This document shows, piece by piece, positions 28,198 to 46,662 of a stretch of 64,000 bases of DNA (positions are counted from its first letter, which is position 1; each line of letters opens with the position of its first letter). The notes under the pieces are model-generated. The model had not been told where the DNA came from, made no database searches, and was given only the letters and a program-made list of their open reading frames with translations. The stretch is from Fusobacterium necrogenes (GTDB taxonomy: Bacteria; Fusobacteriota; Fusobacteriia; Fusobacteriales; Fusobacteriaceae), in NCBI RefSeq assembly GCF_900450765.1, contig NZ_UGGU01000003.1:496001-560000 (forward strand). The letters run 5' to 3'. The translations under genes were made by a program, and so were the position numbers.

Positions 28198-28218
28198 AGA
28201 AAAATTTGTAGGTCACTA

Positions 28219-28258: not shown

Positions 28259-28268
28259 TCAATGTAAA

Positions 28269-28297
28269 TTGTGAATAGAATAATACAAGTATATTAA
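28269..28297 (+). promoter_or_regulatory. Candidate promoter for the polysaccharide locus
   Basis: TTGTGA, 17-nt spacer, TATTAA. A transcript from here would carry the tandem hairpins of the leader, then the TnpB-like gene. Confidence 0.35.
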
Positions 28298-28339
28298 TAT
28301 AAAATTACTATATATTACACAAATTTGATTAAATAGAAA

Positions 28340-28372: not shown

Positions 28373-28420
28373 AAAAGGTAGTTTTGGTTTTGAGAGACTG
28401 ACTACCTTTTTTTATTTTTT
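28373..28420 (+). terminator. Leader hairpin 2, terminator-like
   Basis: AAAAGGTAGT / ACTACCTTTT followed by TTTATTTTTT. It lies upstream of the TnpB-like gene with no gene before it on the same strand since the PhoH terminator, which suggests attenuation. Confidence 0.7.
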
Positions 28421-28422
28421 GG

Positions 28423-28460
28423 AAAAGTACGCCTTTTGATGAAAAAGCGTACTTTCTTTT
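28423..28460 (+). terminator. Leader hairpin 3, terminator-like
   Basis: AAAAGTACGC / GCGTACTTT then CTTTT. Its arms contain AAAAGTAC/GTACTTT, the same core found at the end of the guide-like RNA at 29830. Confidence 0.6.
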
Positions 28461-28562
28461 ACTCGTGAATAACCTATTTTACCCTTTTTTTAAGCATATG
28501 TCAAGGAGATTAAGTTTATTAATTAGAATTTTTTTTAAAAAAGTACTAATTTTAGAGTTATT

Positions 28563-28593
28563 TTTTGATGAAAAATACGCCTTTTCATCAAAA
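28563..28593. other. Leader hairpin 4, just before the TnpB-like gene
   Basis: TTTTGATGAAAA / TTTTCATCAAAA, 12 bp perfect, loop ATACGCC. The loop and flanks repeat elements of hairpin 3 (TACGCC, TTTTGATGAAAA). Comparable to subterminal hairpins of IS200/IS605 elements. Confidence 0.6.
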
Positions 28594-28623
28594 GAAGAAC
28601 TCGAATGAGGAGGAATTTTAAAA

Positions 28624-29724
28624 GTGTCTAACTATATAGTCCAATTTCCTTTGAAAGTGGAAAAATATCAAGAGGATATCTTAGAGAAAAGATTTAGGAT
28701 AGGTAGAGATATATATAATTCACTTTTAGGAAAAATGTTAAAAAAATATGGTGAGATGATAAAAAGAAAAGAGTACAGAGAACTACTATATGAAATAGCT
28801 AATAGCGAAGGAAAGAAAGTCCTTTACAAGAAATTAGAAGAGATTAGGAAAGAAAATGGCTTTAATGAGTATTCTTTTCACAAAGAAGTAAAGAATATGC
28901 AGAAATTTTTTAAAAAGAATATAGATTCATTTACTGCTCAAAAGATAGCTTCACAAGTGTGGAGAGCTTTTGAAAAAATGATGTATGGAAGTGGACAGAA
29001 GGTTCATTTTAAACAGGAAGATGATTTCAAATCCTTAGAGGGAAAATCTAATGGAACAGGGATTAGATATATAGATGGATACATTGATTGGAAAGGTCTT
29101 AAGTTAAAAGTTCTAATTGATAAGGAAAACTACTATGAAAAAGAAGCGCTTAAGAGTGAGATAGCTTATTGTCGTATTATGAGAAAAAATATTCGAGGGA
29201 AACTCAAATACTATACACAGTTAGTTTTTAAAGGTATTCCACCTAGAGAGATAGATAAGAAAACTGGAGAGTATAGAAATAGAGTTGGAAGTGGTGAGAT
29301 TAGATTAAAGATAGGGAAAGAATATCTCATCTATGAAAAAGATGGAAAAGTAAAAGAGGTTGAATTAGCAGATAAGATATATCTACTAGAGCTTAGAAGA
29401 AAAGAGCTAATAGAGAAGATAAATAGAAGAAAAAAAGAGGGATTATCAACACTCAGTGTAAGACATAGAAAGCTAGTAGAGGAATTAAAGGAGATATATA
29501 GAAAGCAAAGTGAGGTGAGAAAGTACCAACATGAGTGCTTAAGTAACGAGATATTAAAACTTGGGGATAAGGTAGAGATAGAAGAGTTAGAGAGTGTACA
29601 AGAAGAAATTTACTCTAAGGGTAAAGAAAAAAGAGTAAAGATAACTAGGAGTGGGAAAAGAGGAAATAGAGCTCCTAGAATGTTGGTTGAAATTTTAAAT
29701 AGAAAACTAAAAAATAGGTTTTGA
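28624..29724 (+). CDS. Nuclease-dead TnpB-like protein, candidate TldR RNA-guided repressor
   Basis: 366 residues, an intact frame starting GTG behind GAGGAGG. It aligns by eye with fusobacterial IS605 TnpB along its whole length: NYIVQFPLK start, IDSFTAQKIASQVWRAFEKM, GIRYIDGYIDWKGLKLKV, YYTQLVFKGIPP, YRKQSEVRKYQHECLSNEIL. The RuvC-I motif, normally LDIG, is LKIG, so the catalytic Asp is Lys229. The RuvC-II Glu remains (E320). The protein stops at LNRKLKNRF, where TnpB would continue with the zinc-ribbon and RuvC-III Asp; both are missing. No tnpA is near. A dead nuclease kept intact and placed at the head of a polysaccharide operon is the pattern of TldR regulators. A recently inactivated IS remnant is the alternative. 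Confidence 0.7.
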   Translation: MSNYIVQFPLKVEKYQEDILEKRFRIGRDIYNSLLGKMLKKYGEMIKRKEYRELLYEIANSEGKKVLYKKLEEIRKENGFNEYSFHKEVKNMQKFFKKNIDSFTAQKIASQVWRAFEKMMYGSGQKVHFKQEDDFKSLEGKSNGTGIRYIDGYIDWKGLKLKVLIDKENYYEKEALKSEIAYCRIMRKNIRGKLKYYTQLVFKGIPPREIDKKTGEYRNRVGSGEIRLKIGKEYLIYEKDGKVKEVELADKIYLLELRRKELIEKINRRKKEGLSTLSVRHRKLVEELKEIYRKQSEVRKYQHECLSNEILKLGDKVEIEELESVQEEIYSKGKEKRVKITRSGKRGNRAPRMLVEILNRKLKNRF

Positions 29725-29849
29725 TGCGAACCTAACTAGTAATAGTGAAAACTTCAAATGAAAGAGATTGGGCTATCACTCTTTAGAGAGGAATGGAAAT
29801 TCTTGAGTAGTGAGGAGTAAGAAGTGTCAGTACTTTTCATTTGTTAAAT
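29725..29849 (+). ncRNA. Guide-RNA-like (omega RNA/gRNA) segment
   Basis: No frame is open in the 157 bp between the TnpB-like gene and the sugar transferase gene. It contains short stems (AAAGAG / CTCTTT; GAAT / ATTC; TTCTT / AAGAA) and ends with AAGTGTCA at 29822-29829, close to the AGTGTCAA end of many IS605 right ends. In TnpB and TldR loci the guide follows that end, so the predicted guide is GTACTTTTCATTTGTTAAAT (29830-29849). Boundaries are inferred. Confidence 0.45.
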
Positions 29850-29881
29850 AATATTAAAAAAATAAATTGGAGAGAATTTTT

Positions 29882-31246
29882 ATGAAAAGACAAGTAGCAA
29901 AAGTTGTAATGATAATAATGCAGTTCATTTTCTACTTTGTAGTTAATGAATTATTTAAAGTGCCAGATAGGATAATGTACAATACATTTTTCATTTATCT
30001 GGCTTTAAATTTGACTAAAAATATGTATTCCTTTAAAACTATTCTAATATGGGAAGAGTTGAGAAAGCTTTTATTAGTTCATATAGAATATTTAATAATT
30101 ATGCTAATCAATGACTTGGCTTTTTGGGGAGTAAAGTATATCCCTGTTCATCTTTTTGTAGGACTTACTTTTACGTTTTTTAATATTTTTATAATTAGCT
30201 TTATAAGGAAAGTGTTTAGAAAAAAACTTGAGAAGAGTTTATTAATAATCGGGATAGGAAATACTGCTAATCAGATAACAAGGATAATAAAAGATAATAA
30301 TACCTTTACTATGTATAAACTATTGGGATATATCTCAGCTAATAATATAGAAGGGGTAAATCAAGAGGTTCATGTGGAAAAAGACAAAGTAATAGGTACT
30401 TATGAGGATTTGGATAAAATCCTAGATAAGAATAAAGTAAATGAGGTACTTATAGCCTTACCACTAGCAAATAACGAGCAGATGGAAGAGATAATTAATA
30501 AGCTAGATGGTAGGGTAGATAAGATTAAGTTTATTCCAAGACTAAATGGCACATATACACTTAACTCAACAGTAGAGGACTATGATGGAATGATGGTGCT
30601 ATCTACTTATAACGGAATGAATAAGAAAAGATACAAAATACTAAAAAGATGTTTTGATATCATTGCTGGTAGTATAGGTTGTGTAGTATTAGGCCTACTT
30701 TATTTAATCTTTGCCCCTAAGATAAAAAAAGATGGTGGGAAAGCAATATTTACCCAAAATAGAATTGGTAAAGATGTAAAAACATTTAAGATGTATAAAT
30801 TTAGAAGTATGTATGTAGATGCAGAGGAGAGATTACAAGAACTATTAGAAAAAGATGAGAAGATAAGAGAAGAGTTCTATAGAACCTTTAAATTGAAAGA
30901 TGACCCAAGAATTACAAAGGTAGGAGAGTTTTTAAGAAAAACTTCATTAGATGAGTTTCCACAGTTTTTGAATGTAATAAAAGGAGAGATGTCCTTTGTA
31001 GGACCTAGACCAGTAGTACAAAAGGAAGTAGATATGTACTATGGGAAAGAAAATGCTAGAAAGATATTTATGGTAAAACCAGGGATAACAGGAATGTGGC
31101 AAGCTAATGGAAGGTCAGATGTAGAGGACTATGATTCAAGAATAGGTTTAGATTTATATTACATACGTAACTGGTCACTATGGCTAGATGTGATAATAAC
31201 AATTAAGACAATAAAGAATGTTATATATAGAAAGGGTGCGTATTGA
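29882..31246 (+). CDS. Polyprenyl-phosphate sugar-1-phosphate transferase (initiating enzyme)
   Basis: Starts repeat-unit assembly by moving a sugar phosphate from a nucleotide sugar to undecaprenyl phosphate. About 454 residues: four N-terminal membrane helices, a CoA-binding-like Rossmann domain (LLIIGIGNTANQITRII), a fifth helix (DIIAGSIGCVVLGLLYLIF) and the catalytic domain with FTQNRIGKDVKTFKMYKFRSM, KTSLDEFPQFLNVIKGEMSF, GPRPV and KPGITGMWQANGRSD. WcaJ/WbaP-like architecture. Start at ATG 29882 with GGAGAG 6 nt before; the TTG at 29867 is inside the ribosome-site region. First structural gene of the operon. Confidence 0.93.
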   Translation: MKRQVAKVVMIIMQFIFYFVVNELFKVPDRIMYNTFFIYLALNLTKNMYSFKTILIWEELRKLLLVHIEYLIIMLINDLAFWGVKYIPVHLFVGLTFTFFNIFIISFIRKVFRKKLEKSLLIIGIGNTANQITRIIKDNNTFTMYKLLGYISANNIEGVNQEVHVEKDKVIGTYEDLDKILDKNKVNEVLIALPLANNEQMEEIINKLDGRVDKIKFIPRLNGTYTLNSTVEDYDGMMVLSTYNGMNKKRYKILKRCFDIIAGSIGCVVLGLLYLIFAPKIKKDGGKAIFTQNRIGKDVKTFKMYKFRSMYVDAEERLQELLEKDEKIREEFYRTFKLKDDPRITKVGEFLRKTSLDEFPQFLNVIKGEMSFVGPRPVVQKEVDMYYGKENARKIFMVKPGITGMWQANGRSDVEDYDSRIGLDLYYIRNWSLWLDVIITIKTIKNVIYRKGAY

Positions 31247-32085
31247 TGGAAAAAATTTCTATAATAGTACCAATTTATAATGGAGAGAAGTATTTAGAAA
31301 AATTAGTTTCAAAGATAAAAGAACAAGAGATTAATAAAAAAATAGAATTGATAGCTTTGGTAACAAAATCAAAAGATACTAGTCTAAAAAAAGCTAAAGA
31401 GCTATTTGATATTGTTTTAGAGATAGAAAAATTTAATCATGCTAAAACAAGACATGAGGGAGCATTAAAGTCATCAGGGGGCATTTTAGTCTTTATAACT
31501 CAAGATATATTACCTTATGATAATCAATGGTTAAAAAATTTGATTGAACCATTAAATGAAAAGATAATAGCTTCTTTTTCAAGACAGATAGCATATGAAG
31601 AACATTCTAATATTGAAAAAATAATTAGAGAATTTAACTATCCTAATAAAGATAGAATTTGTAATAAAGAAATGAAAGAAAAAAATGGAAGAAAAAATAT
31701 TTTCTATAGTGATGCCTCATCAGCTATTATAAAAGAAAAATTTTTTGAATTAGGTGGATATAATTTTGAAGTTCCTACAAATGAAGATGTATATTTAGCT
31801 AATAAGATAGTAGAAAATGGATATAGTTTCTTGTACGCTTCTCAAAGTAGAATTTGGCATTCACACCAACTATCTTTAAAAGATACTTATAAAAGATATA
31901 AAGATATAGGAAAATTTGAGAAATTATATAAAAATGAAATTGATTTTTCTAAAACACAAAGTGAAGGAAATAAAGTATTACTTTTTTTAATAAAAGAGTT
32001 ATTAAAAAGAAAAAATATAAAAGAATTAATCTATCTTCCTTTTGATATAGGAGCTAGATGGATAGGATATAAAATGGAGGATTAA
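31246..32085 (+). CDS. Glycosyltransferase family 2
   Basis: About 280 residues. GT-A fold with [16 protein letters not shown], an acidic loop ITQDI in place of a strict DxD, and [30 protein letters not shown] as acceptor-side ED motif. The pattern resembles rhamnosyltransferases, fitting the dTDP-rhamnose genes that follow, but specificity cannot be read. ATG overlaps the TGA of the previous gene (TGATG). Confidence 0.85.
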
Positions 32086-32086
32086 A

Positions 32087-32473
32087 ATGAAAGGAATAAT
32101 ATTGGCAGAAGGAAGTGGAACAAGACTTTATCCTATAACAAAAGCGATATCAAAACAAATAAATCCAATATATGATAAACCAACGATCTATTACCCCCTT
32201 TTTATTCTTATGTTAGCAGGAATAAAAGAGATATTAGTAATCTCTACTCCTAGAGATTTACCTTTATTTAAAGCTCTACTTAGAAATGGAGAAAGATTTA
32301 GAGTGAAATCGGAATGTGTAATATAAGAAAAAGCAAAAGGATTGACAGAAACTTTTATTATGGGAAAAAAGTTTGTAGATAAATAAATGGTTAAGTAAAG
32401 AAAAAGTATTAGAGTTAGTAAACCATTAATGGAATCAAAATACGAAGAATATTTAGTAAATTTAGTGAAATAG
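32087..32473 (+). pseudogene. rfbA: Broken rfbA (glucose-1-phosphate thymidylyltransferase)
   Basis: The first 79 codons match the intact RfbA encoded at 46663 ([26 protein letters not shown]), with GGSGTR changed to EGSGTR. At the position of a Gln codon there is TAA (32324-32326); the same frame then continues EKAKGLTETFIMGKKFVDK. About 480 bp of the middle are missing, and the C-terminal part (WLSKEKVLEL, then KPLMESKYEEYLVNLVK) reads in two frames. So at least one nonsense change, a large deletion and a frameshift. Confidence 0.92.
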
Positions 32474-32482
32474 GTGGAGCAG

Positions 32483-33883
32483 ATGAGTAAGTTTAAAAAA
32501 ATGGAAACAGGAATAGAAGGACTATGTATAATAGAGCCTACTGTATTTGGAGATAATAGAGGATTTTTTTTAGAAACATATAATAAGAAAGAATTTGAAG
32601 AGTTAGAAATAACAGCAGAATTTGTACAAGATAATCATTCTAAATCTAGAAAAGGAGTATTGAGAGGATTACATTTTCAAACTAAACATTCTCAAGGAAA
32701 ATTAGTAAGAGTAGTAAAAGGCTCAGTATATGATGTAGCAGTAGATATTAGAAAAAGAAGTAAAACATATGGACAGTGGTATGGAATAGAACTAAGTGCA
32801 GAAAATAAAAAGATGTTCTATATACCAGCTGGATTTGCTCATGGATTTTTAACTTTAGAAGATGATACAGAGTTTCAATATAAATGTACAGATATATATG
32901 CGCCACAATATGATAGTGGAATAATGTACAATGATAAAGATTTAAATATAGATTGGAAATTAGAAGAATACGGAATAACAGAACTTACTCTATCAGAAAA
33001 GGATAAAAAGCATCAAACTTTTAAAGAATATACAGAAAATTACCAAGGAGACTATGTATTGCTTACTGGTGCTAATGGCCAATTAGGACAGGATTTTCAA
33101 AAGTTATTTGATAAATTAGGAGTTAGATATATAGCTACTGATTATCAAGATCTTGATATAACAGACAAAGAAAAAATAAAAATGTATATGAATAGTAATA
33201 ATTTTACAGTAGTTATTAATTGCGCTGCATATAATGATGTAGATAAGGCAGAAGATGAAGTTGAAAAGTGTTATTCTTTAAATACTTATGCACCTAAAAA
33301 TTTAGCGGAGATCTGTAAAGAAAAAGATATTATTTTTGTAACTTATTCGACAGATTTTGTATTTGATGGAGAAAAAGAGATACCATATGTAGAAGAAGAT
33401 ATTCCTAATCCTTTATCAGTATATTCTAAATCTAAGTTAGAAGGCGAGAAATACTCTTTAAAATATGAGAAGGCTTTTTTAATTAGGACATCTTGGGTAT
33501 TTGGAATGGGAAACAATAATTTTTGTAAACAAGTAATAAATTGGTCAAAAGATAAAGATATATTAAAGATAGTAGATGATCAAGTATCTAGCCCAACATA
33601 TTCAAGGGATTTAGCAGAATTTTCTTGGGCTTTAATACAAACAAATAAGTATGGATTATATCATTTTTCAAATGCAGGAGAAGCTTCTAAGTACGAACAA
33701 GCAGAATATATATTAAATAAGATAGGCTGGAGAGGAAAATTGGAAAGAGCAAAGACAAATGATTTTCCATTAAAGGCAAAAAGAGCTAAATATTCAAAAT
33801 TAGATAGTAGTAAGATAGAGAAATTACTAAATAAGAAGATACCTCATTGGAGAGAGGGGATTGAAAAATTTTTAAAAAACTAA
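32483..33883 (+). CDS. Fused dTDP-4-dehydrorhamnose 3,5-epimerase / dTDP-4-dehydrorhamnose reductase
   Basis: About 466 residues joining RfbC and RfbD, the last two steps of dTDP-L-rhamnose synthesis. N-terminal cupin epimerase (about 1-180): FGDNRGFFLETYNKKEF, VQDNHSKSRKGVLRGLHFQ, IPAGFAHGFLTLED. C-terminal SDR reductase (from about 190): VLLTGANGQLGQDF, DKAEDE, YSTDFVFDGE, PLSVYSKSKLEGE with the Tyr-Lys pair, RTSWVFG. Start at ATG 32483 behind AGGTGGAG. dTDP-glucose 4,6-dehydratase (RfbB), needed between RfbA and this enzyme, is not in the window. Confidence 0.93.
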   Translation: MSKFKKMETGIEGLCIIEPTVFGDNRGFFLETYNKKEFEELEITAEFVQDNHSKSRKGVLRGLHFQTKHSQGKLVRVVKGSVYDVAVDIRKRSKTYGQWYGIELSAENKKMFYIPAGFAHGFLTLEDDTEFQYKCTDIYAPQYDSGIMYNDKDLNIDWKLEEYGITELTLSEKDKKHQTFKEYTENYQGDYVLLTGANGQLGQDFQKLFDKLGVRYIATDYQDLDITDKEKIKMYMNSNNFTVVINCAAYNDVDKAEDEVEKCYSLNTYAPKNLAEICKEKDIIFVTYSTDFVFDGEKEIPYVEEDIPNPLSVYSKSKLEGEKYSLKYEKAFLIRTSWVFGMGNNNFCKQVINWSKDKDILKIVDDQVSSPTYSRDLAEFSWALIQTNKYGLYHFSNAGEASKYEQAEYILNKIGWRGKLERAKTNDFPLKAKRAKYSKLDSSKIEKLLNKKIPHWREGIEKFLKN

Positions 33884-33899
33884 AAGAGGGATATTAAAA

Positions 33900-35024
33900 A
33901 TGAAAAAAATAAAAATTGGATATATGATATCACATTTAGAAAATTCTGGTCCTGTAAATATATTATATGGAATTATAAAATATTTGGATAGGACTAGATT
34001 TGAACCTTATATAATAACTTTAAAAAGTGAGAAAGAGAATACAAGAAAAAAAGAATTTGAAGATTTTGAAGTTAAAATAATAGAAAATATTACTTCAAAT
34101 TTTAATATAGTTTTTAAAAGAGATAAATTTTTAGAAAAAAAAATTAAAGAATTAAGGATAGAAATTTTACATGCTCATTGTTTACCAAGCGCAGTCTTAT
34201 TAGCTAATTTAAGAATAAAAAATATAAAAAAAATAAATACACTTCATTGGGATTTTTCAACAGATTTGATATATAAATTTGGAATAATAAAAGGATACAT
34301 TTTTAAAAAGATTTATATTAAAGCATTAAAAAAAATGAATTTAAATATAAGTTGTGGAGAAGGAGTTTCTAAATTAAACCGACTACATTCTGGAATAAAA
34401 AGTATTTCAATTATGAATGGAATAGATGAAGAAAAAATAAATTTACAAAATGTATTAGAAAGTAAAGAAGAAATAAGAAAAAAATTGGGGATATCCCTAA
34501 AGAAAAAAGTTTTTATAAGTATAAGTTCAATAGATGAAAGAAAAAATATTTTATTTTTAACTAAAGTATTTAAGGAGAAATTAAAAGATTATATTCTTAT
34601 AATACTTGGTGATGGAGATAAAAGAAAAAGATTAGAAAATTTAATAAAAGGGAGTAATAATATATATTATTATGGTAAAAAAAAATTAGACGAAATTCAG
34701 TATTATTTAAAAGCTAGTGATTTTTATATTTCTGCATCTAAAAGTGAAGGAATGCCAAACTCTGTATTAGAAGCTTTACAATTTGAGTTACCAGTTATTC
34801 TATCTAATATAAAACCACATGAAGAAATTATATGTTTAGGAAATATAGGTACTATTTTTAATCATAATGATAAACAGGATTTGGAGAATAAGATTGGGAA
34901 AATATTAGAAAAGCAGTCAATAAAAAGTGAAATAAAAAAAGTAAAAAATATAATTTCAGCAAAAAGGATGAGTAGAGAATATATGGAGATATATTCTAAA
35001 AAGGTAAGAGATGAATATATATAG
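33900..35024 (+). CDS. Glycosyltransferase family 4
   Basis: 374 residues, GT-B fold. N-terminal MISHLENSGPVNILYGI and LHAHCLPSAVLLAN are the usual acceptor-domain motifs; C-terminal SIDERKNILFL, LGDGDKRKRLE and SASKSEGMPNSVLEALQFELPVI (EX7E motif) are the donor domain. Sugar specificity unknown. Very A+T-rich, unlike the flanking housekeeping genes. Overlaps the next gene by 14 bp. Confidence 0.9.
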   Translation: MKKIKIGYMISHLENSGPVNILYGIIKYLDRTRFEPYIITLKSEKENTRKKEFEDFEVKIIENITSNFNIVFKRDKFLEKKIKELRIEILHAHCLPSAVLLANLRIKNIKKINTLHWDFSTDLIYKFGIIKGYIFKKIYIKALKKMNLNISCGEGVSKLNRLHSGIKSISIMNGIDEEKINLQNVLESKEEIRKKLGISLKKKVFISISSIDERKNILFLTKVFKEKLKDYILIILGDGDKRKRLENLIKGSNNIYYYGKKKLDEIQYYLKASDFYISASKSEGMPNSVLEALQFELPVILSNIKPHEEIICLGNIGTIFNHNDKQDLENKIGKILEKQSIKSEIKKVKNIISAKRMSREYMEIYSKKVRDEYI

Positions 35025-36060
35025 AATTATTTTAATAGTATTACTTTTATTGTTTGTCATTGAAGATTATTTAAAAAAAAATAAGAAAATATATGGTTTT
35101 TTAAAAATTTTTATGCTATTAATTTTATTATTTTTAATTGGCTGCAGAGGAAATATAGCAAGAGATGATCAAATGTATATTAGTTTATTAAATGAATTTG
35201 AATATTCTCTTACTTTCATAAAAGAATCACGTTTTGAAATATTTTATCTTTTTTTAAATGGAATAGTAAAGTTTGTTATTGATGATTATAATGTATTATT
35301 TTTAGTTATTGCTGGGATAAATTTATATAATTTATATAAATTTATTAGTTTTTTTTCAGTATCATTTTTTTATTCTCTATCTTTTTATTATTGTCGTTGG
35401 ATATTTTTAAAAGAGTTTACACAGATAAGAAGTGGTTTGGCTTGTTCATTTCTATATTTAGCTTTGATTGAATTGTATAAAAAAAAAGAAAAAAAATATT
35501 ATTTTTGGGTTTTAGTAGGAGGGTTATTTCATAAGGCTATTTTTTTTGCTGTGTTTTTTCCCATATTTTTAAAACTGTTAAATAAAAATTTAGAAATAAA
35601 AGAGAAAATAATTTATATTTTTATACTAGGATTTCCATTTTTTAATATAAAAGGTTACTTAAATATTATTTTATTAAAATTAGGAATACATCAAGTATAT
35701 TTAACAGGATACTATTCAGAGAAAACTACTAATATTGTTTATTTTTATTCATTATTTTTTTTAATAGTATTAATCATATTTGATAGAAAATTAAAATTAT
35801 TATTTTTTTCTAGATATATTTTTCTAAAAAAAGTATATATCTTTAGTTGTTTAATTGGAGCTATTTTATATCATTATGGAGATATAGCAGGAAGATTAAG
35901 TTCATTTTTTAATGTTGAATTCGTACTTCAAGATAAGTTATTAAATATATTTAAAAGTAGATTTATGTTAAGAATAGTTTTACTTTTATTTTTAATATTA
36001 TTATATTATGTTAACTTTACTTTAAAGTTGGAATTAGAATATTGGAATTATTTTAAATAG
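35011..36060 (+). CDS. EpsG/Wzy-like polysaccharide polymerase
   Basis: 349 residues, about ten hydrophobic helices; CRGNIARDDQMYISLL near the N-terminus and EFTQIRSGLACSFLYLAL with a conserved Arg fit the EpsG family of Wzy-type polymerases. It would join repeat units at the periplasmic face. Only one such multi-helix protein without a transporter signature lies in the operon, so it is the best candidate polymerase. Extremely A+T-rich. Confidence 0.75.
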   Translation: MNIYRIILIVLLLLFVIEDYLKKNKKIYGFLKIFMLLILLFLIGCRGNIARDDQMYISLLNEFEYSLTFIKESRFEIFYLFLNGIVKFVIDDYNVLFLVIAGINLYNLYKFISFFSVSFFYSLSFYYCRWIFLKEFTQIRSGLACSFLYLALIELYKKKEKKYYFWVLVGGLFHKAIFFAVFFPIFLKLLNKNLEIKEKIIYIFILGFPFFNIKGYLNIILLKLGIHQVYLTGYYSEKTTNIVYFYSLFFLIVLIIFDRKLKLLFFSRYIFLKKVYIFSCLIGAILYHYGDIAGRLSSFFNVEFVLQDKLLNIFKSRFMLRIVLLLFLILLYYVNFTLKLELEYWNYFK

Positions 36061-36069
36061 AGGTGTAAG

Positions 36070-37203
36070 ATGAAAATATTATATATTAGTAATAGAAGTA
36101 ATTCTCAGAATAAAAATGGAGCATACCAAGTAGCTCAACGAAACTATGAACATTTGAAAGAAATATTTAATAGAAAAATAGAAATATATTTAATAAAGAA
36201 AAAATCAATAGTAAGTAAAATTATAGATACTTTTATTTTTAAACGTTTAGAAGGTATCTCAATAAAAATGGAAGATGAAATTATAAGTATATTATCTACA
36301 AATGAGTTTAACTATGTTTTTTTTGAAAGTAGTTCATTTGGATATTGTGCTGAAAAAATAAAGAAAAAATATCCAAAAATAAAAATTATTACTTTTTTCC
36401 ATGATATTAACCATAGTCTATGGAAGCCTCTATATTTAGAAACTAAAAAAAATAAAAAAAATTTATTAAATACTATAAAATTGAAAAAGTTTATGAAAAA
36501 TTCAATAGTAAATGAAAAGAAGGTGTGTGAAATAAGTGATAAGATAATTACTTTGAATAGTAGAGATAGTATTTTATTGAAAGAATTATATAAAGTTAGT
36601 TCAGATAAAGAAATAGGAGTTACTTTTCCAATGAGAAAAATATCAAGGTTTGATAAAAAAGTTGAAAAAGAAAAGTTGAAATTATTATTTGTTGGAGTAG
36701 GAACATTTTTACCAAATATTCAAGGAATAGAATTTTTTATAAAGAAAGTATTACCATATATAAATGTTGAATTAGAAATAGTAGGAAAAGGAACGGAAAT
36801 AAATAAAGAAAAATGGGAGAGTTTAAATTCAAAAGTTAAAGTTAGAGGAACTGTAGATTCGTTAGATGAATATTATAATGATGCTGATGTTGTAATAGCT
36901 CCAATTTTTATGGGTGGTGGAATGAAGGTAAAGACAGCAGAAGCGTTATCTTATGGAAAAACTATTTTTGGAACAAAAGAAGCTTTTGAAGGGTATGAAG
37001 TAGATTATAAAAAAGTTGGTGGATTATGTAATACAGCAGAAGAATTTATAAAGTCAATAACTGAATATATGAAATGGTGGGAAAATAATAATAAGCCTGT
37101 TTTTAATGAGTATTCTTATCAAATTTTTAAAGAAAAATATAGTTATGAATCTTCATTGAAAAAATTTAAAGAAATTTTCGAAAAGTTAGAAAAGGAGAAC
37201 TAA
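36070..37203 (+). CDS. Glycosyltransferase, GT-B fold
   Basis: 377 residues. ISNRSNSQNKNGAYQVAQRNYEHL at the start, FFHDINHSLW, LLFVGVGTFLPNIQGIEFF and VVIAPIFMGGGMKVKTAEALSYGK match GT4/GT1-like enzymes with PIxxGGGxxxK acceptor-loop motif. Donor and acceptor unknown. AGGTG ribosome site. Confidence 0.82.
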   Translation: MKILYISNRSNSQNKNGAYQVAQRNYEHLKEIFNRKIEIYLIKKKSIVSKIIDTFIFKRLEGISIKMEDEIISILSTNEFNYVFFESSSFGYCAEKIKKKYPKIKIITFFHDINHSLWKPLYLETKKNKKNLLNTIKLKKFMKNSIVNEKKVCEISDKIITLNSRDSILLKELYKVSSDKEIGVTFPMRKISRFDKKVEKEKLKLLFVGVGTFLPNIQGIEFFIKKVLPYINVELEIVGKGTEINKEKWESLNSKVKVRGTVDSLDEYYNDADVVIAPIFMGGGMKVKTAEALSYGKTIFGTKEAFEGYEVDYKKVGGLCNTAEEFIKSITEYMKWWENNNKPVFNEYSYQIFKEKYSYESSLKKFKEIFEKLEKEN

Positions 37204-37209
37204 AAGATA

Positions 37210-38100
37210 ATGAAACATGCATTTATGATAATGGCTCATAATAATTATAATCAACTAACAAAACTACTATATTTATTAGATCACCCAGATGTAGAAATAT
37301 TTTTACATATAGATAAAAAAAGTGAAGAATATACCCCACCTAAGTTGATATACTCAAAGATAAATTTATTAGAAAGAATGAAAATTAATTGGGGAGGATA
37401 CTCGCAAATTAATTGTGAATTAAAGTTGTTAAAATTAGCTTTAAAAAATAATAAATTAAAATATTTTCATTTAATAACAGGACAAGATTTGATATTAAAA
37501 AGAATTGATAAAGTACTAGATTTTTTTAAAAAATATCAAGAAAAAAATTTTATACATTTTGATAGAGAAATAAAAAGTTTGGATAGATATAAAAGAATAA
37601 GATATTATAGACCATTTCAAGATATAGTTTCTAAAAGAACCTTTTTAGGGAAAATAATTATCTCAATTTTCCAAGAAAGAATTTTTTGTTTATTACAAAA
37701 AATATTTGGAATAGATAGAAATAAAAAATATAAAAATGTTCAATTTAAGAGTGGATCAGCTTATTTTAGTATAACAAGAGAATTTGCTGAGTATATAGTT
37801 AAGAATGAAAAAGATATAGAAAAATGTTTTGCATATACTATTTGTGGAGATGAAATGTTTGTTCAAACTTTAGTATATAATTCAAAATTTAAAGAGACTT
37901 TATTTAATGATAAGTATAATGATAAATGTTCAGCTAATCAAAGATATATAGATTGGAATACTGGAACTCCATATATTTGGAGAAAAAGTGATGTTGATGA
38001 TTTGTTTGAAAGTAATTATTTATTTGCAAGAAAGTTTGATGAAAAAGTAGATTCAGAAATTATAGATGAGATAATAGCAAGAATTAGAAATGATATTTAA
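37210..38100 (+). CDS. GT14-type beta-1,6-N-acetylglucosaminyltransferase-like protein
   Basis: 296 residues resembling the core-2/I-branching (GT14) family: AFMIMAHNNYNQLTKLLYLL, IFLHIDKKS, INWGGYSQINCELKLL, YFHLITGQDLIL and FKSGSAYFSITREFAEYIV, GDEMFVQTL. Bacterial members add side-branch or backbone hexosamines or xylose in surface glycans. Specificity not determined. Confidence 0.87.
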   Translation: MKHAFMIMAHNNYNQLTKLLYLLDHPDVEIFLHIDKKSEEYTPPKLIYSKINLLERMKINWGGYSQINCELKLLKLALKNNKLKYFHLITGQDLILKRIDKVLDFFKKYQEKNFIHFDREIKSLDRYKRIRYYRPFQDIVSKRTFLGKIIISIFQERIFCLLQKIFGIDRNKKYKNVQFKSGSAYFSITREFAEYIVKNEKDIEKCFAYTICGDEMFVQTLVYNSKFKETLFNDKYNDKCSANQRYIDWNTGTPYIWRKSDVDDLFESNYLFARKFDEKVDSEIIDEIIARIRNDI

Positions 38101-38119
38101 AAATAATAAATTGGAGTAA

Positions 38120-39766
38120 ATGATGAAGAAAAATCTTTTAAAGTGGCAAGATGAATTAAATATTTCTATTCAACAAAATGAAGATAATTTCTCTAAATAC
38201 CTAGAGTTTGGTACAGGTGGTATGAGAGGAATAATGGGTATTGGTACTAATCGTATGAATGAATATATGATTGGAAAAGCTACTCAAGGTTTAGCTAACT
38301 ACCTTATTAAAACTAGTGGAGAGTCAGGAAAATCCAAGGGTATAGTAATAGGATACGATAGTAGAGTAAATTCAGTAGAATTTGCTGAAAGAACAGCCTT
38401 AGTTCTATGTGCTAATAAAATAAAGACTTATCTATTTGATAGTATCAAAAGTACTCCAGAACTATCTTTTGCTGTAAGAGAATTAAAATGTCAAGCTGGA
38501 GTAATGATTACAGCTTCTCATAATCCTAAAGAATACAATGGATATAAAGTATATTGGAAAGATGGGGGACAACTAGTAGAACCACAAGCTAGTGGAATAA
38601 TAAAAGAGGTAAATAATACCGGTGAATTTGATGATGTAAGGATAATTACTAAAGATGAAGCTTTAGCAAATGGATTACTTACAATATTATCAAATGAGTT
38701 AGATGCTAAATACTTAGAAAGTATAAAAAAAGAATCTGTTCTAAATAATTTACCCAAAGATATTAAAATAGTATATTCTCCACTTCATGGAACAGGTGGT
38801 AGACCAGTAAAGAGATTATTAGAAGAATTAGGATATACAAATATCTATGTAGTAGATCAGCAATTTGAACCTAATGGAGAGTTTCCTACTTGTCATTATG
38901 CGAATCCAGAAGAGAAATCAGTATTTGATTTAGCTATTAAGTTAGCTGAGAAAAAGAGAGCAAATATCTGTATAGCAAATGATCCAGATGCTGATAGAAC
39001 AGGAATGATGGTAAAAGAAGATAGAGAATGGATATATTTTAATGGAAATCAAATAGGAGCTCTTTTATTATCATATATTCTAAAAAATAGTAAAAATATT
39101 AAAAAAAATAGCGCAATAGTTTCAACTATTGTTACTACTCCAATGTTAGATTTATTAGCTAAAGACTATAATTTAAAAGTTTTCAGAACTCTTACAGGAT
39201 TTAAATATATAGGAGAAAAAATTAGAGAATTTGAAGAAAGAAAATATAATAATACTTTCCTATTTGGAATGGAAGAATCAATAGGATATCTTAAAGGAGA
39301 TTATGTAAGAGATAAAGATGGAATACTTGGAGTAATGTTAATAGTAGAGATGTGTTCTTACTTTGAAAGTGTAGGTACTACTCCATTAAAAGAATTAAAT
39401 AAGCTATATGATAAGTATGGTTGGTATAGTGAGATAACTTATCCAGTAACTAGAATAGGAGAAAAAGGACAAGAAGAGATATCAAAAATGATGTCAGAGT
39501 TAAGAAAACAAGATTTTAAAGAGTTTTTAGGAAAAAAAGTAGTTACTAGATATGACTATAAATATGATGAATTGGGTTTACCAAAATCAAATGTAATTCA
39601 ATATATATTAGAAGATGGAAGCTATATAACTATTAGACCATCTGGAACAGAACCAAAGATAAAATACTATATTTATACTAAAGATATTTCTAAAGAAAAA
39701 GCTGATAAAAAGTTACAAGATTTATTAGAAAAACTAAAAGAGTATATGCAATCATTGTTAGATTAG
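38120..39766 (+). CDS. Phosphohexomutase (phosphoglucomutase/phosphomannomutase)
   Basis: 548 residues, the PgcA/ManB-like long alpha-phosphohexomutase. Catalytic phosphoserine loop MITASHNPKEYNGYK, metal site NDPDADRTG, sugar loop GMEESIGYL and phosphate-binding RPSGTEPKIKYY. It interconverts hexose 6- and 1-phosphates; next to manC it probably makes mannose 1-phosphate. ATG doublet at 38120/38123; GGAG fits the second slightly better. Base composition is less A+T-rich than in the glycosyltransferases around it. Confidence 0.93.
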   Translation: MMKKNLLKWQDELNISIQQNEDNFSKYLEFGTGGMRGIMGIGTNRMNEYMIGKATQGLANYLIKTSGESGKSKGIVIGYDSRVNSVEFAERTALVLCANKIKTYLFDSIKSTPELSFAVRELKCQAGVMITASHNPKEYNGYKVYWKDGGQLVEPQASGIIKEVNNTGEFDDVRIITKDEALANGLLTILSNELDAKYLESIKKESVLNNLPKDIKIVYSPLHGTGGRPVKRLLEELGYTNIYVVDQQFEPNGEFPTCHYANPEEKSVFDLAIKLAEKKRANICIANDPDADRTGMMVKEDREWIYFNGNQIGALLLSYILKNSKNIKKNSAIVSTIVTTPMLDLLAKDYNLKVFRTLTGFKYIGEKIREFEERKYNNTFLFGMEESIGYLKGDYVRDKDGILGVMLIVEMCSYFESVGTTPLKELNKLYDKYGWYSEITYPVTRIGEKGQEEISKMMSELRKQDFKEFLGKKVVTRYDYKYDELGLPKSNVIQYILEDGSYITIRPSGTEPKIKYYIYTKDISKEKADKKLQDLLEKLKEYMQSLLD

Positions 39767-39775
39767 GAGGAAGCT

Positions 39776-40849
39776 ATGCTGACAGCAATTATCATGGCTG
39801 GTGGAAGTGGAGAGAGATTTTGGCCACTATCTACACCAGAAAGACCAAAACAACTATTAAAAATATTTTCAGATAAAACTATGATAAGAGAAACAGTTGA
39901 TAGAATTCTTCCTATCATAAAACCAGAAAATATATTTGTAGCTACTAATATTATTCAAGCTAAAGAAATAGAAAAAGAGCTATCAGATATACCAAAGGAA
40001 AATATAGTGATAGAACCAGCTTTTAAAGATACAGCAGCAGCTATTGGCTATACTTCTTTGATAATAGAAAATAGATTTAAAGATAAATTAGAAATTGGAG
40101 AGAAGATAGAAACGATAGTTCTTGCATCAGACCATCTTATTAAAAAAGAAGATGAATTTAGATATGCGATATTAAAAGGCGCAGAGGAAGCAAGAAATAA
40201 TGGAGTAATAGTAACACTTGGAATAAAACCATCTAAACCAGAAACAGGATATGGATATATAGAGGTAAAAGATGAAACTATGGAACTTAACTCTATATGT
40301 AAAGTAAAAAGATTTAGAGAGAAACCAAGTCTTGAAGTAGCAGAAAGTTATCTAGCTAGTGGGAAATACTTATGGAATAGTGGAATGTTTATCTTTACAA
40401 CTGAAACTATATTTAAAAACTTTGAAGTACTTATGGAAGAGCACACAGAAGTTTTTAATGAGATAAGAAAACAGTTGAAAGAAAATTTGTATGGAGAAGA
40501 GTTAAGTCAAATAGTAAAATCATACTTTGAAAAATTTGAAAAAATATCAGTAGATTTTGGAATAATGGAATACTCTAAAAATATTAGAGTAATACCTGTA
40601 GATATAGATTGGAACGATATTGGAAGCTTTAATGCTTTTGATGAAATATTTCCAAAAGATGAAAATGGAAATGTAGTAAGAGGACAAAAAATAAGAAACT
40701 TAGATTCAAAAGATAATATAGTAATATCTGATGATGTAGAGATATCACTACTTGGAATAAATGATTTAGTAATAGTAAAAAAGAAAGATAAATTATTAAT
40801 AACAAGAAAAGATAGAACACAGGATATTAAGAAAATAATGAAAGGATAA
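39776..40849 (+). CDS. manC: Mannose-1-phosphate guanylyltransferase
   Basis: Makes GDP-mannose from mannose 1-phosphate and GTP. 357 residues, the single-domain form without the isomerase cupin. Nucleotidyltransferase motifs: IIMAGGSGERFWPLS, LASDHLI, FREKPS, YLWNSGMFIF and VDIDWNDIGSFNAF. AGGAGG ribosome site, 9 bp after the mutase gene. With that gene it supplies the GDP-mannose branch. Confidence 0.94.
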   Translation: MLTAIIMAGGSGERFWPLSTPERPKQLLKIFSDKTMIRETVDRILPIIKPENIFVATNIIQAKEIEKELSDIPKENIVIEPAFKDTAAAIGYTSLIIENRFKDKLEIGEKIETIVLASDHLIKKEDEFRYAILKGAEEARNNGVIVTLGIKPSKPETGYGYIEVKDETMELNSICKVKRFREKPSLEVAESYLASGKYLWNSGMFIFTTETIFKNFEVLMEEHTEVFNEIRKQLKENLYGEELSQIVKSYFEKFEKISVDFGIMEYSKNIRVIPVDIDWNDIGSFNAFDEIFPKDENGNVVRGQKIRNLDSKDNIVISDDVEISLLGINDLVIVKKKDKLLITRKDRTQDIKKIMKG

Positions 40850-40852
40850 ATA

Positions 40853-41782
40853 ATGAAAAAGGTAGCAATAATAATTCCTACATACAATAGAGGTCATTTG
40901 TTAGAAAAGACTATTCCATCGTATGCAGAACAAATAGGAGAAAATTTTTGGATAAAAGAAATTATTATAGTTGATGATTTTTCAGTTGATAATACTACAA
41001 ATGTTGTTGAAAAACTAAAAGAAAGTTATCCTATAATTAAGTATTATAAACTAGAAAAAAATAGTAAACAGCAAGTAGCTAAAAATAAAGGAATTGAACT
41101 TTTAGGTAAGGAAATAGATTATGTGTATTTTGGAGATGATGATGCAATATTAATACCTAATTCAATTAATTATTTGGTAGAAACACTAGAAAAATATAAA
41201 GCTGATGTTGTAGGAGCAAGATCATTATATGCAGAAATAGAGGAGAATATAGAAAATTATGAAAAATTTATAATGAAGAGTAATATTGAATATCTAAAGA
41301 GTGAAGTTGTGAACTTTGAAAAGGATATATTTAATTTTAGACAATATTTTGAAAAACCAATTTGTGTGCCTGTAACACAAGCTTATATACTAGTAAGAAA
41401 AAATATATTAACGGATGATATTAGATTTGACAAAAGGTACACTAATAATTGTTATAGAGAAGAAACTGATTTTATTTTACAACTGAATAAGAAAGGAAGA
41501 AAAATCATGTTTGATTCTAGAGCTATTGGTATTAATTATCCAAGAAATATAGCTACTGGGGGTGCACATAAAAGAGGAATATTAGGGAGATTAATGTGGT
41601 ATTACTGGACTATAGTAAATAATAATAAATTTTTAGATAAAAATTATGAATTTTTAAAAGATAAAAATTATGTAAAAAGTTCAAAAAATACTTTGAAGAT
41701 AAAATTTGTATTTATACAAGGAAGTAGATTTCTGAAAAATAAATTGAGAAAGAAAGGATTTGTAAAAAAATGTATTATATAA
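40853..41782 (+). CDS. Glycosyltransferase family 2
   Basis: 309 residues. VAIIIPTYNRGHLLEKTIPSY, IIIVDDFSVDNT, YVYFGDDDA (DxD) and YREETDFILQL are standard GT2 motifs. Ends in a basic tail. Overlaps the next gene by 13 bp. Specificity unknown. Confidence 0.88.
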   Translation: MKKVAIIIPTYNRGHLLEKTIPSYAEQIGENFWIKEIIIVDDFSVDNTTNVVEKLKESYPIIKYYKLEKNSKQQVAKNKGIELLGKEIDYVYFGDDDAILIPNSINYLVETLEKYKADVVGARSLYAEIEENIENYEKFIMKSNIEYLKSEVVNFEKDIFNFRQYFEKPICVPVTQAYILVRKNILTDDIRFDKRYTNNCYREETDFILQLNKKGRKIMFDSRAIGINYPRNIATGGAHKRGILGRLMWYYWTIVNNNKFLDKNYEFLKDKNYVKSSKNTLKIKFVFIQGSRFLKNKLRKKGFVKKCII

Positions 41783-42690
41783 GTATAATTATCTGTAGTT
41801 ATAATTCTGAAAAAACAATATTAGAAACATTAAAGAGTGTAGAAGCTCAAACTTATAAAAATTTTGAGGTAATAATTGTGGATGATGCTTCTAATGATAA
41901 TACATTGAAAATAATAAAAGAATGGCAAAATAAAACCAGTATACTTTCTGAAAATATAATGGTAATAAGTGCTCTCTCAAATGAGGGAATAGTTAAAAAT
42001 ATAAATAAAGGGTTGATAAGAGCAAAAGGAGAATGGATAAAGATAATAGCAGCAGATGATATATTGCTAAAGAATTGTTTAAATGATAATGTAGAGTGGA
42101 TAAAAAAAAATAAGGATATTTTAGTATTGACTTCAATTGCACAGTATTTTTCAGATAAAGGAATTTTAAATAAAGTTTCACCATCAAAAAGAGATATTAA
42201 AAAGTTTAATTATAATGCTAAAGAGCAATATAATGAACTTTTAAAGAAATTTTATATATGTAGTGTAACTTCTTTTATAAAAAAAGAATTTTTGAAAAAG
42301 ATAGATTTTTTTGATGAAAGAATACCAATGATAGAAGATTATCCTTTTTTTTTAAAAGTAACTAAATTAGGAATACCAATTTATTATATGCCTAAGAAAA
42401 CTGTTAAATATAGAGTTGGAGAAAGTGTTTCAAATACTCAAATAAATATAAGAAATTTAAAATTTTATAATTCACAAAAGCTTGTATACAAATATTATAT
42501 AGAACAAAATATATCATTTTTTCTAAAAATGCATTATAGGTATGAATTTTTTATTTATGATTTATCTATAAAAATATTTAATAATAGATTAAATATTCCA
42601 TCAAGAGCTTTTATGTGTTTTTTAAAAAGTTTTGATTTATATTATTTAAAAAAGAAATTAAAGAATTGGATTTTGAAAGATGAAAAATAA
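41770..42690 (+). CDS. Glycosyltransferase family 2
   Basis: 306 residues. ISIIICSYNSEKTILETLKSVEAQTY, FEVIIVDDASNDNTL, KIIAADDIL (DxD) and MIEDYPFFLKV (ED) are canonical GT2 motifs. Starts inside the end of the preceding glycosyltransferase gene and ends inside the start of the flippase gene, so the three are translationally coupled. Confidence 0.9.
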   Translation: MYYISIIICSYNSEKTILETLKSVEAQTYKNFEVIIVDDASNDNTLKIIKEWQNKTSILSENIMVISALSNEGIVKNINKGLIRAKGEWIKIIAADDILLKNCLNDNVEWIKKNKDILVLTSIAQYFSDKGILNKVSPSKRDIKKFNYNAKEQYNELLKKFYICSVTSFIKKEFLKKIDFFDERIPMIEDYPFFLKVTKLGIPIYYMPKKTVKYRVGESVSNTQINIRNLKFYNSQKLVYKYYIEQNISFFLKMHYRYEFFIYDLSIKIFNNRLNIPSRAFMCFLKSFDLYYLKKKLKNWILKDEK

Positions 42691-44098
42691 TAAATTAAAA
42701 CTATTTTTAGAAAATTTCATATTCTATGGTGGACTTTCTATGTTAGAAAAAGCTTTGCCATTTATAACATTACCTATCATCACAAGATTATTGGTAGATC
42801 CTAGTGCTTATGGAATTGCAGATATGTTTAATCTAATAATTTCTTTTGGGAGTGCTTTAGCTATTTTAGGAATGTATGATGCTATATTTAGAGAATATTT
42901 TGAGGATAAGAATAATAAAGAATATCAAAAGAGAGTAACAGCAACAGGAATGAATATAGTATTATTTTCTGGATTTATAATAATGGTTGGAGTAGTTATT
43001 TTTAAAAATTTTGTAGGGAAACAAATATTTGGAAGTTTAGAATACTCAAATTTGGTTATATTATCAGCAATAGGGATATATTTATCAGCTATAAATGGAA
43101 TTGTAGCAGCTCCAACAAGAATGAGGAATCAGAGAAGAATATATTTAATAAGAGGTATAACATTTCCAGTGTTGGGATTTCTAATAACAATAGTGTCAAT
43201 AAGATTAGGTTATACTTATGAAGCTTTAATTTATGGAACGATAGGAATGTCTTTAATCTCAGTTATGAGTTTTTATTATTTAAATAGAAGAGATTTTTCT
43301 ATAAAAATATTTGATAAAAAAATAGCTAAAGAGTTATTAAAAATAGGTTTACCATTAGTTCCAACATTTTTAATTTATTGGATATTTTCTTCCATGGATA
43401 GAATAATGATAAATAGATTATTAGGCGCTTCAGAACTAGGAATATATACAGTTGGTTCAAAAGTATCTTCTGTAAGTCAATTAATATATTCAGCTTTTGC
43501 AGGTGGATGGAGTTATTTTTCTTTTTCTACAATGAAAGATGAAAAGCAAGTAGAAACTAATTCAAAAGTATTTGAATATTTAGGAATAATAAGTATTTTT
43601 ATTTATATATGTTCTCAGCCTTTTATATCTCCAGTTTTTAATTTTTTTCTAAAAGGAGAGTATGTAAGAGGAGAGGAAGTGTTTGCTTTTTTATTTTTAT
43701 CACCCCTAATACTTATGTTATATCAAACAGTAGGAAATCAAGTAATAGTAATAAAAAAAAGTTATTTAGTGACTTTAGCTTTACTTTTAGGAGCAATATT
43801 AAATATATTACTGAATTTTATTTTTATAAAAAGTCATGGAATAAAAGGAGCAGCTTTTTCAACTTTAAATAGTTATATAGTATCTGTAATTATAATGTGT
43901 TTAATTTGTTATAGGTATAAGTTATTTATAATATCTAAAAGATTTTTATTGGTAAGTATATTAGCTACAGTTGGAATATATTTAGATTTTTTTCTTAAGG
44001 AATATATATCTTATAAGTTAATTTATGGAATTACTTTAATAACTATACTTTTATTTTATTTAAAAGATTTAAAAAAATTATTAATTAGGAGGAAATAA
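42680..44098 (+). CDS. Wzx-type polysaccharide flippase
   Basis: 472 residues with about 12-14 membrane helices of the MATE/MVF superfamily. FIFYGGLSMLEKALPFITLPIITRLL and MDRIMINRLLGASELGIYTVGSKVS are typical for oligosaccharide flippases. It would move the lipid-linked repeat unit across the inner membrane for polymerisation by the EpsG-like protein. Confidence 0.92.
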   Translation: MKNNKLKLFLENFIFYGGLSMLEKALPFITLPIITRLLVDPSAYGIADMFNLIISFGSALAILGMYDAIFREYFEDKNNKEYQKRVTATGMNIVLFSGFIIMVGVVIFKNFVGKQIFGSLEYSNLVILSAIGIYLSAINGIVAAPTRMRNQRRIYLIRGITFPVLGFLITIVSIRLGYTYEALIYGTIGMSLISVMSFYYLNRRDFSIKIFDKKIAKELLKIGLPLVPTFLIYWIFSSMDRIMINRLLGASELGIYTVGSKVSSVSQLIYSAFAGGWSYFSFSTMKDEKQVETNSKVFEYLGIISIFIYICSQPFISPVFNFFLKGEYVRGEEVFAFLFLSPLILMLYQTVGNQVIVIKKSYLVTLALLLGAILNILLNFIFIKSHGIKGAAFSTLNSYIVSVIIMCLICYRYKLFIISKRFLLVSILATVGIYLDFFLKEYISYKLIYGITLITILLFYLKDLKKLLIRRK

Positions 44099-44100
44099 AG

Positions 44101-45195
44101 TTGAAAGTACCATTTAATACACTTGATAGACAATTTTATCTATACCAAGAAGAATACGAGAAAAAAGCTTTAGAAATTTTAAGAAAAGGTTGGTATGTAT
44201 TAGGTCCAGAAGTAAAGTCTTTTGAAGAAGAGTTTGCTAAATATTTAAATATTCCAACAACAATAGGGGTAGATAATGGTTTGAATGCTATTGTCATGAC
44301 AGTTAGAGCTCTAGGTATAAAAGAAGGAGATGAAGTAATAGTTCAGGCAAATACCTATATAGCTTCAGTAATGGGAATAACTATGAATGGTGCAACTCCT
44401 ATTTTTGTAGAACCAGATGAATATTATAACATTGATATAGACAAAATAGAAGAAAAAATAACAGATAAAACAAAAGCAATATTAGTAGTTCATTTATATG
44501 GACAAGCTTCTAATATGGAAAAAATATTAGAGCTTTGTGAAAAATATAATATAAAATTAATTGAAGATTGTGCTCAAGCTCATGGAGCTAAGTATATGAA
44601 TAAAATGGTAGGAACTTTTGGTATTGGATGTTTTAGTTTTTATCCAAGCAAAAATTTAGGATGTTTCGGGGATGGAGGAGCTATCTCTACTGGAGATGAA
44701 AAATTAGAGGGAGATTTTAGAGTTTTAAGAAACTATGGAAGTGAAAAAAGATATTATAATGAAGTGGTTGGTTATAACTCAAGATTAGATGAATTACAAG
44801 CAGGGCTATTAAGAGTGAAACTAAGTCATATTTTTGAACTAGAGGAAGAAAGAAAACAAATAGCTGAAAGATACTTGAAGGAGATAAAAAATCCATTAAT
44901 AACTTTACCTAGAGTAAGAGAAAATTGTACACATGTTTGGCATTTATTTGTAGTTAGAGTTAATAGTAGAGATAAATTTCAGAAATATTTAGAGAAGAAT
45001 GGGATAGGAAGTGTTATACATTATCCAATACCACCTCATTTGTCAGAAGCTTATAGATATTTAGGGCATAAAAAAGGAGATTTTCCAATAACAGAAAAGT
45101 ATGCAGAAACAGTTTTAAGTTTACCTCTTTATAATGGAATGACTAAAGAGGAATTGGATTATGTAATAGAAAAGATTAATAGCTACGAGGGATAG
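44101..45195 (+). CDS. Sugar 3-ketoacid-type PLP aminotransferase (FdtB/QdtB-like)
   Basis: DegT/DnrJ/EryC1/StrS aminotransferase, 364 residues. VPFNTLDRQF start, VDNGLNAI, LVVHLYGQ, EDCAQAHGA, the PLP-binding Lys in YPSKNLGCFGDGG and YNSRLDELQAGLL. The neighbouring cupin ketoisomerase and acetyltransferases suggest it aminates C3 of a dTDP-3-keto-6-deoxyhexose, as FdtB or QdtB do. TTG start 8 nt after AGGAGG. Confidence 0.9.
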   Translation: MKVPFNTLDRQFYLYQEEYEKKALEILRKGWYVLGPEVKSFEEEFAKYLNIPTTIGVDNGLNAIVMTVRALGIKEGDEVIVQANTYIASVMGITMNGATPIFVEPDEYYNIDIDKIEEKITDKTKAILVVHLYGQASNMEKILELCEKYNIKLIEDCAQAHGAKYMNKMVGTFGIGCFSFYPSKNLGCFGDGGAISTGDEKLEGDFRVLRNYGSEKRYYNEVVGYNSRLDELQAGLLRVKLSHIFELEEERKQIAERYLKEIKNPLITLPRVRENCTHVWHLFVVRVNSRDKFQKYLEKNGIGSVIHYPIPPHLSEAYRYLGHKKGDFPITEKYAETVLSLPLYNGMTKEELDYVIEKINSYEG

Positions 45196-45197
45196 TA

Positions 45198-45797
45198 ATG
45201 AAGATATTAAAAAAGATATTGAGAAGAATATATTTTGAAATTATTTGGAGGAAAAATATAATTAATAAAATATGGTTTGATGGAATAATAAAAATAGGTA
45301 AAAAAACAAAATTTTATCAACCATTAAAGTTGAAAAATGGGGGGGGGGGGGGGACGGTAATAATTGGAGAAAATTGTTCCTTTGGTTTTAGATATGGTGG
45401 AAGATTTAAAAATGGAGAAATAGAAATACAAACAAGAAGTAAGGAAGCAAAAATAGAAATAGGAAATAATGTAGCTACTAATAATAATATTTTTTTATGT
45501 AGTAGGAAATTTATAAAAATAGGAGATAAAACTTTAATCGGTAGAGATGTTGTAATAATGGATCATAATGGACATGGGATTAAAGTCGATGAAAGAAGTT
45601 TACCAGGAACAGCAAGAGGAATAGAAATAAAAGAGAATGTTTGGTTAGGAAATAATGTTGTTATACTACCTGGGACGCTAATAGGAAAAAATTCAATAGT
45701 TGGAGCTAATAGTGTTGTGAAGGGAATTTTTCCAGAGAATGTAATTATTCAAGGAAATCCAGCTAAAATAGTAAAAAAAATAGAGGTAAATGAATGA
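45198..45797 (+). CDS. Left-handed beta-helix acyltransferase with poly-G switch
   Basis: 199 residues. Hexapeptide-repeat acetyltransferase (WbbJ/CapB-like): IEIGNNVATNNNIFLCS, LIGRDVVIMDHNGHGI with the catalytic His region, KENVWLGNNVVILPGTLIGKNSIVGANSVV and GNPAKIVKKIE. Codons 48-52 are five GGG in a run of 15 G. In this copy the frame is ON. With 14 G translation would end at TAA 45358; with 16 G it would stop about 13 codons later. It may acetylate the amino sugar or the glycan. Confidence 0.9.
   Translation: MKILKKILRRIYFEIIWRKNIINKIWFDGIIKIGKKTKFYQPLKLKNGGGGGTVIIGENCSFGFRYGGRFKNGEIEIQTRSKEAKIEIGNNVATNNNIFLCSRKFIKIGDKTLIGRDVVIMDHNGHGIKVDERSLPGTARGIEIKENVWLGNNVVILPGTLIGKNSIVGANSVVKGIFPENVIIQGNPAKIVKKIEVNE
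45339..45353 (+). repeat. Homopolymer of 15 G inside a coding region
   Basis: Fifteen G in a row in a region with about one-quarter G+C; a contingency-locus type slippage tract. Exact length in the cell population is likely mixed. Confidence 0.95.
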
Positions 45798-46661: not shown

Positions 46662-46662
46662 A

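Follow-up and report, generated by a model that had tools for sequence, protein, structure and literature searches.

A nuclease-dead TnpB homologue and a predicted guide RNA at the head of phase-variable polysaccharide operons in Fusobacterium

A truncated TnpB homologue in front of a polysaccharide operon

The 64,000-nucleotide stretch of Fusobacterium necrogenes DNA analysed here, referred to as the window (contig NZ_UGGU01000003.1, positions 496,001 to 560,000), carries a surface-polysaccharide operon headed by an invertible promoter segment, a gene for a nuclease-dead TnpB homologue and a conserved structured noncoding element (Table 1). We consider it rather probable that these features form a regulatory module of phase-variable polysaccharide operons, with the dead TnpB and its guide RNA as the likely repressor. 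The protein lacks the complete RuvC catalytic set of active IS200/IS605 TnpBs. Lys229 replaces the RuvC-I aspartate (RLKIG, codon 29308-29310, vs GLDIG in intact relatives), and alignment with intact relatives showed this aspartate exchanged for Lys, Arg or Gly in all seven members of the family. The RuvC-II glutamate is kept in the window copy (Glu320), while across the family the position is Glu in four members and Asp in three. The RuvC-III block is absent from every family protein: all terminate shortly past an APxM...RK motif, with loss of the C-terminal ~110 residues, and the window protein ends in APRMLVEILNRKLKNRF, short of the block that reads RVQRDMYSAFL in intact relatives. The corresponding motifs of intact relatives are LDIG or IDIG for RuvC-I, VEKM or VENM for RuvC-II and QRDMYSAF or QRDLYSAF for RuvC-III. 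Since intact relatives carry no cysteine zinc ribbon in their C-terminal stretch, the lost part is the RuvC-III portion and not a classical ribbon. No tnpA was seen among the open reading frames of 22-38 kb in the window. An earlier note on this DNA had described an intact 366-codon TnpB-like frame with Lys229, a retained RuvC-II Glu and no tnpA nearby, ending before both zinc ribbon and RuvC-III; this description holds, with the exception of the zinc ribbon.

Neither Pfam nor NCBIfam recognised the window protein above cut-off. Its assignment as a TnpB rests on a profile search, BLASTP and a structural comparison. The family profile picks up intact TnpBs within the phylum, the nearest being a 490-aa TnpB of Cetobacterium somerae (plasmid record NZ_CP092520.1; 44% identity over 399 columns, BLASTP), which matches the NCBIfam model guided_TnpB, but below the model cut-off. 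Judging from their sequence, other intact relatives in the phylum have a tnpA-like gene directly upstream; among these relatives, L025 exceeds the guided_TnpB cut-off. Foldseek searches ranked Cas12f and TnpB structures at the top, which is supportive only, the AlphaFold model being of low confidence (predicted local distance difference test score 64). dCas12f guide-RNA complexes with a nuclease-dead Cas12f/TnpB-like fold (PDB 9n9c, 9n9m) are among the matches, a likeness at the level of fold from the same low-confidence model. The Cetobacterium protein is the sister sequence of the family. Unlike the window protein, it is full length, retains all RuvC residues and adjoins a MATE gene instead of a polysaccharide operon.

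Distribution, selection and genomic position

Twelve genomes of the genus were searched, and the gene was found in five of them as seven intact copies: two each in the window's genome (G000) and in G001, one each in G002, G003 and G005. All frames are open, and the copies share 67-96% identity with the window copy. Pairwise ratios of nonsynonymous to synonymous substitution (dN/dS, Nei-Gojobori) range from 0.07 to 0.16 in all pairs, with dS up to about 1.7, so the frame is under purifying selection. In a tree, the seven copies form a single clade (support 100/100) adjoining the Cetobacterium TnpB. The two copies of G000 are nearest to each other, as are those of G001, and such within-genome pairs point to recent duplication or gene conversion.

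Polysaccharide genes lie directly downstream of all seven copies. In G005 the first downstream gene encodes a Polysacc_synt_2 protein, and the G002 contig terminates within the first polysaccharide gene. Genes upstream of the module vary among loci, except that G002 and G003 are collinear. One of the G001 copies has a tnpA/tnpB pair, unrelated to it, ~0.6 kb upstream. Pattern-based searches of genome contigs and viral contigs returned only one locus, which was already known.

Truncation of the C-terminus, loss of a catalytic residue and absence of tnpA would also be displayed by the remnant of a decaying, functionless insertion sequence (IS) that travels with polysaccharide loci. Seven intact copies at the same position, purifying selection, a covarying conserved RNA and descent as one fully supported clade speak against such decay; being contradicted by dN/dS and synteny, the idea was rejected and we regard it as extremely improbable. 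The earlier note had named a dN/dS near 1, one-off decayed IS copies, or active full-length homologues without these neighbours as observations that would undermine its proposal. Neither of the first two was seen. Intact full-length homologues do exist, but adjoin tnpA or a MATE gene, and the position before polysaccharide loci, which it had proposed to check for D-to-K homologues in other strains, is kept throughout the family.

The whole module is repeated in the window's genome (L003, G000 C3:190806-191894), 97% identical, in the OFF orientation and in front of a different polysaccharide operon. At two loci from two species (L014 and L017), a gene for an Acyl_transf_3 acyltransferase separates the dead TnpB gene, whose end it overlaps, from the RNA element; the insertion site is the same in both and is possibly a cargo slot of the module.

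A conserved RNA element follows the gene

Two parts of the module, the RNA element and the invertible promoter, go beyond what the earlier note described. The RNA element follows all seven gene copies with a mean identity of 90%, even though the gene next to it is close to saturated at synonymous sites when species are compared. RNAalifold predicted seven helices, with seven doubly compensated pairs and pairing in 97.8% of cells. None of 500 shuffles reached these values, and slid controls dropped to 40-54% pairing; as the alignment holds seven sequences only, the covariation is support and not proof. A covariance model built from the element had the seven module loci as its sole matches in the 12 genomes. 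Rfam contains no family for it. Among loci on which the model was not trained, two Cetobacterium-type TnpB genes scored best, each matched weakly (E about 0.002) at its 3' end, which is where an omega-RNA would lie. Taken together, the element is predicted to be a guide RNA kept beside the dead TnpB gene.

The start of the guide was placed by analogy with related IS elements, the right end of which consists of a hairpin and TTCAG, followed by flanking DNA as the would-be guide. Their left flanks share TTTAT, likely the target-adjacent motif (TAM). The sequence first considered as guide, TACTTTTCATTTGTT after GTGTCAG, was discarded because its bases belong to the last hairpin, the counterpart of the IS right-end hairpin; its other genome matches occurred at about control frequency.

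An invertible promoter segment upstream of the gene

A promoter of the form TTGACA-17 bp-TAAAAT is found at all seven loci, with a TTGACT, TAGAAT variant in G005. Only in G003 and G005 does it face the gene; at the other five loci, including the one in the window, it faces away. Upstream of the gene, G002 and G003 are collinear apart from a 156-bp stretch, bounded by inverted repeats, that matches at 97% only as the reverse complement. Opposite orientations at near-identical loci indicate an invertible, phase-variable promoter, the comparison being one of two genomes across assemblies rather than within one culture. The repeat-124 bp-repeat design occurs at both G000 loci, at one G001 locus and in G002 and nowhere else in the five gene-carrying genomes; a reversed-pattern control gave 0 matches. 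A terminator-like hairpin upstream of the segment probably shields the module from read-through. With a flipping promoter preceded by such a hairpin, whether gene, RNA and operon are expressed should depend on the flip. Serine recombinases are encoded on three small contigs (C1, C2, C4) and a number of tyrosine recombinases on the chromosome; none of these is linked to the module.

Proposed function and search for targets

Described TldRs (TnpB-like nuclease-dead repressors) include an oligopeptide transporter (oppF) case. According to PMC13418256, TldRs are nuclease-dead TnpBs that retain guide-RNA and DNA binding and are partnered with non-transposon genes. The module resembles the flagellin- and csrA-associated TldRs treated there in its homology to TnpB, its inactivated RuvC domain, the absence of a transposase, a conserved RNA element at the 3' side and a stable non-transposon partner. 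It differs from them by its Fusobacteriota TnpB branch, the wholly missing RuvC-III block, the polysaccharide partner and the invertible promoter, and its repression of a target is hypothetical.

The second parallel is with Bacteroides capsule operons, which combine flipping promoters with the head-of-operon regulators UpxY, preventing premature termination, and UpxZ, repressing other capsule loci (PMC7315117). Promoter inversion, regulators heading polysaccharide operons and several loci per genome are shared features. UpxY and UpxZ are not TnpB-derived and use no guide RNA, whereas the Fusobacterium module has one TnpB-derived protein and an RNA in their place; neither Pfam nor NCBIfam gave a match above cut-off to NusG-like (UpxY) or UpxZ proteins. 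Judged by its anatomy, the module would work like TldRs within a setting similar to Bacteroides capsule loci. Among open-access papers, none was found that couples TnpB-derived proteins with capsule loci or that deals with such phase variation in F. mortiferum or other Fusobacterium.

We hypothesize that inversion of the 148-bp promoter segment depends on a site-specific recombinase and that, in the ON state, a single transcript would span everything from the dead TnpB gene through the guide RNA to the polysaccharide genes. The protein would bind the guide RNA, and the complex would occupy a DNA site and block transcription there, most likely as other TldRs do. Its target may be something that has to stay silent while the coat is made, such as another coat operon or surface gene. 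In a more specific form, which is possible but doubtful, the complex made by the ON operon would silence competing coat or surface loci as a mutual-exclusion switch, an RNA-guided counterpart of UpxZ.

Several results weigh against RNA-guided repression. Guide matches near module promoters equal those of shuffled controls (mean 5.43, against 5.48 after shuffling), and genome-wide guide matches with or without TAM did not exceed chance and included none shared by orthologous promoters, no exhaustive promoter scan having been made; guide boundary and TAM were those deduced from related IS elements. In addition, the element resembles active omega-RNAs only weakly, folded as a single sequence it is unremarkable (z -1.08), and the C-terminal loss could also impair DNA binding. 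A null target result is expected if the seed is ~6 nt long in an AT-rich genome, and TldR guides only 6 nt long still repress (PMC13418256). Of the earlier note's proposal that an RNA-guided repressor controls a capsule locus, a dead, selected and domesticated TnpB tied to polysaccharide operons and a guide-like RNA have been borne out; the step to repression itself stays an inference, since the searches returned no site combining a TAM with a guide match. Separately, a cas9-like frame of G003 (L139, G003 C111:89659) has a 13-nt match to the predicted guide of that genome ~52 nt before it, seen in one genome and not above chance.

The lack of a DNA target in these searches would also fit a protein that has lost DNA targeting and binds the RNA element in the nascent operon transcript; like UpxY, it would act in cis, through antitermination, attenuation or processing. 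The RNA element lies inside the transcript directly before the biosynthetic genes, even where the acyltransferase gene parts it from the protein gene, and head-of-operon antiterminators are known for capsules (PMC7315117). TnpB relatives, however, are DNA-targeting effectors, the known nuclease-dead ones act on DNA (PMC13418256), and the would-be guide site 3' of the last hairpin is conserved in its first 5 nt at six of seven loci. We judge a cis-acting role to be rather unlikely. Alternatively, the guide could direct self-targeting at the promoter or leader of the module, resulting in negative feedback or an effect on inversion. A seed match of 8 nt is present at the G002 and G003 leader, and in G001 the guide of one locus matches 7 nt at the promoter of the other, but G000 and G005 lack any match of at least 5 nt, matches overall do not exceed shuffles and the flanks are unlike TTTAT, which makes self-targeting improbable.

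For the bacterial coat, the layout suggests a novel type of RNA-guided switch. Should repression by the dead TnpB and its guide RNA prove correct, RNA-guided transcription factors would reach beyond flagellin and transport genes to the polysaccharide coat of the cell surface, and one module would unite a domesticated transposon nuclease with phase variation by DNA inversion. The module offers a concrete, testable handle on coat choice in these bacteria.

The polysaccharide operon and neighbouring features

Table 1 Features of the module and the operon in the window.
Feature	Position	Strand	Remarks
Intrinsic-terminator-like hairpin and T-run	28377..28413	+	Inverted arms AAAAGGTAG/CTACCTTTT; read from sequence
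Left inverted repeat, 30-nt arm	28426..28455		83% complementary to 28572-28601
Invertible promoter segment, 148 bp	28440..28587		OFF in this assembly
Sigma-70-type promoter, TTGACA-17-TAAAAT	28476..28504	-	Directed away from gene (OFF)
Right inverted repeat, 30-nt arm	28572..28601		83% complementary to left arm
Nuclease-dead, C-terminally truncated TnpB homologue (TldR-like), 366 aa	28624..29724	+	GTG start, no internal stop
Conserved structured noncoding element, ~125 nt	29713..29840	+	Predicted guide-RNA scaffold (omega-RNA homologue); overlaps gene end
Predicted guide start, TTGTTAAATAAT	29841..29852	+	Inferred from IS right-end layout (hairpin and TTCAG, then flank)
Polysaccharide operon	29867..47529	+	Extent judged by gene spacing and strand
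Initiating sugar transferase, first operon gene	29867-31246	+	Bac_transf, E 1e-64
EpsG-type polymerase	35011-36060	+	In operon
Flippase	42680-44098	+	In operon

Besides the genes listed in Table 1, the operon contains glycosyltransferases and nucleotide-sugar genes reaching 47529. Just upstream of the module, the stretch 28206-28331 holds direct near-repeats TGTTGAGACCCCCTTAACGAAAACATTGAGACCC, and 28242-28331 is 80% identical to L003 10133-10223; it is probably the remnant of an unrelated mobile element. Within the operon, the 79-aa fragment at 32087-32326 appears to be a truncated copy of the nucleotide-sugar pyrophosphorylase gene, intact at 46663-47529, whose beginning it resembles. Positions 32474-33883 form a single frame with a dTDP-sugar epimerase followed by a reductase, judged by eye to be a fusion of usually separate genes, and similar frames are carried by L014 and L017.
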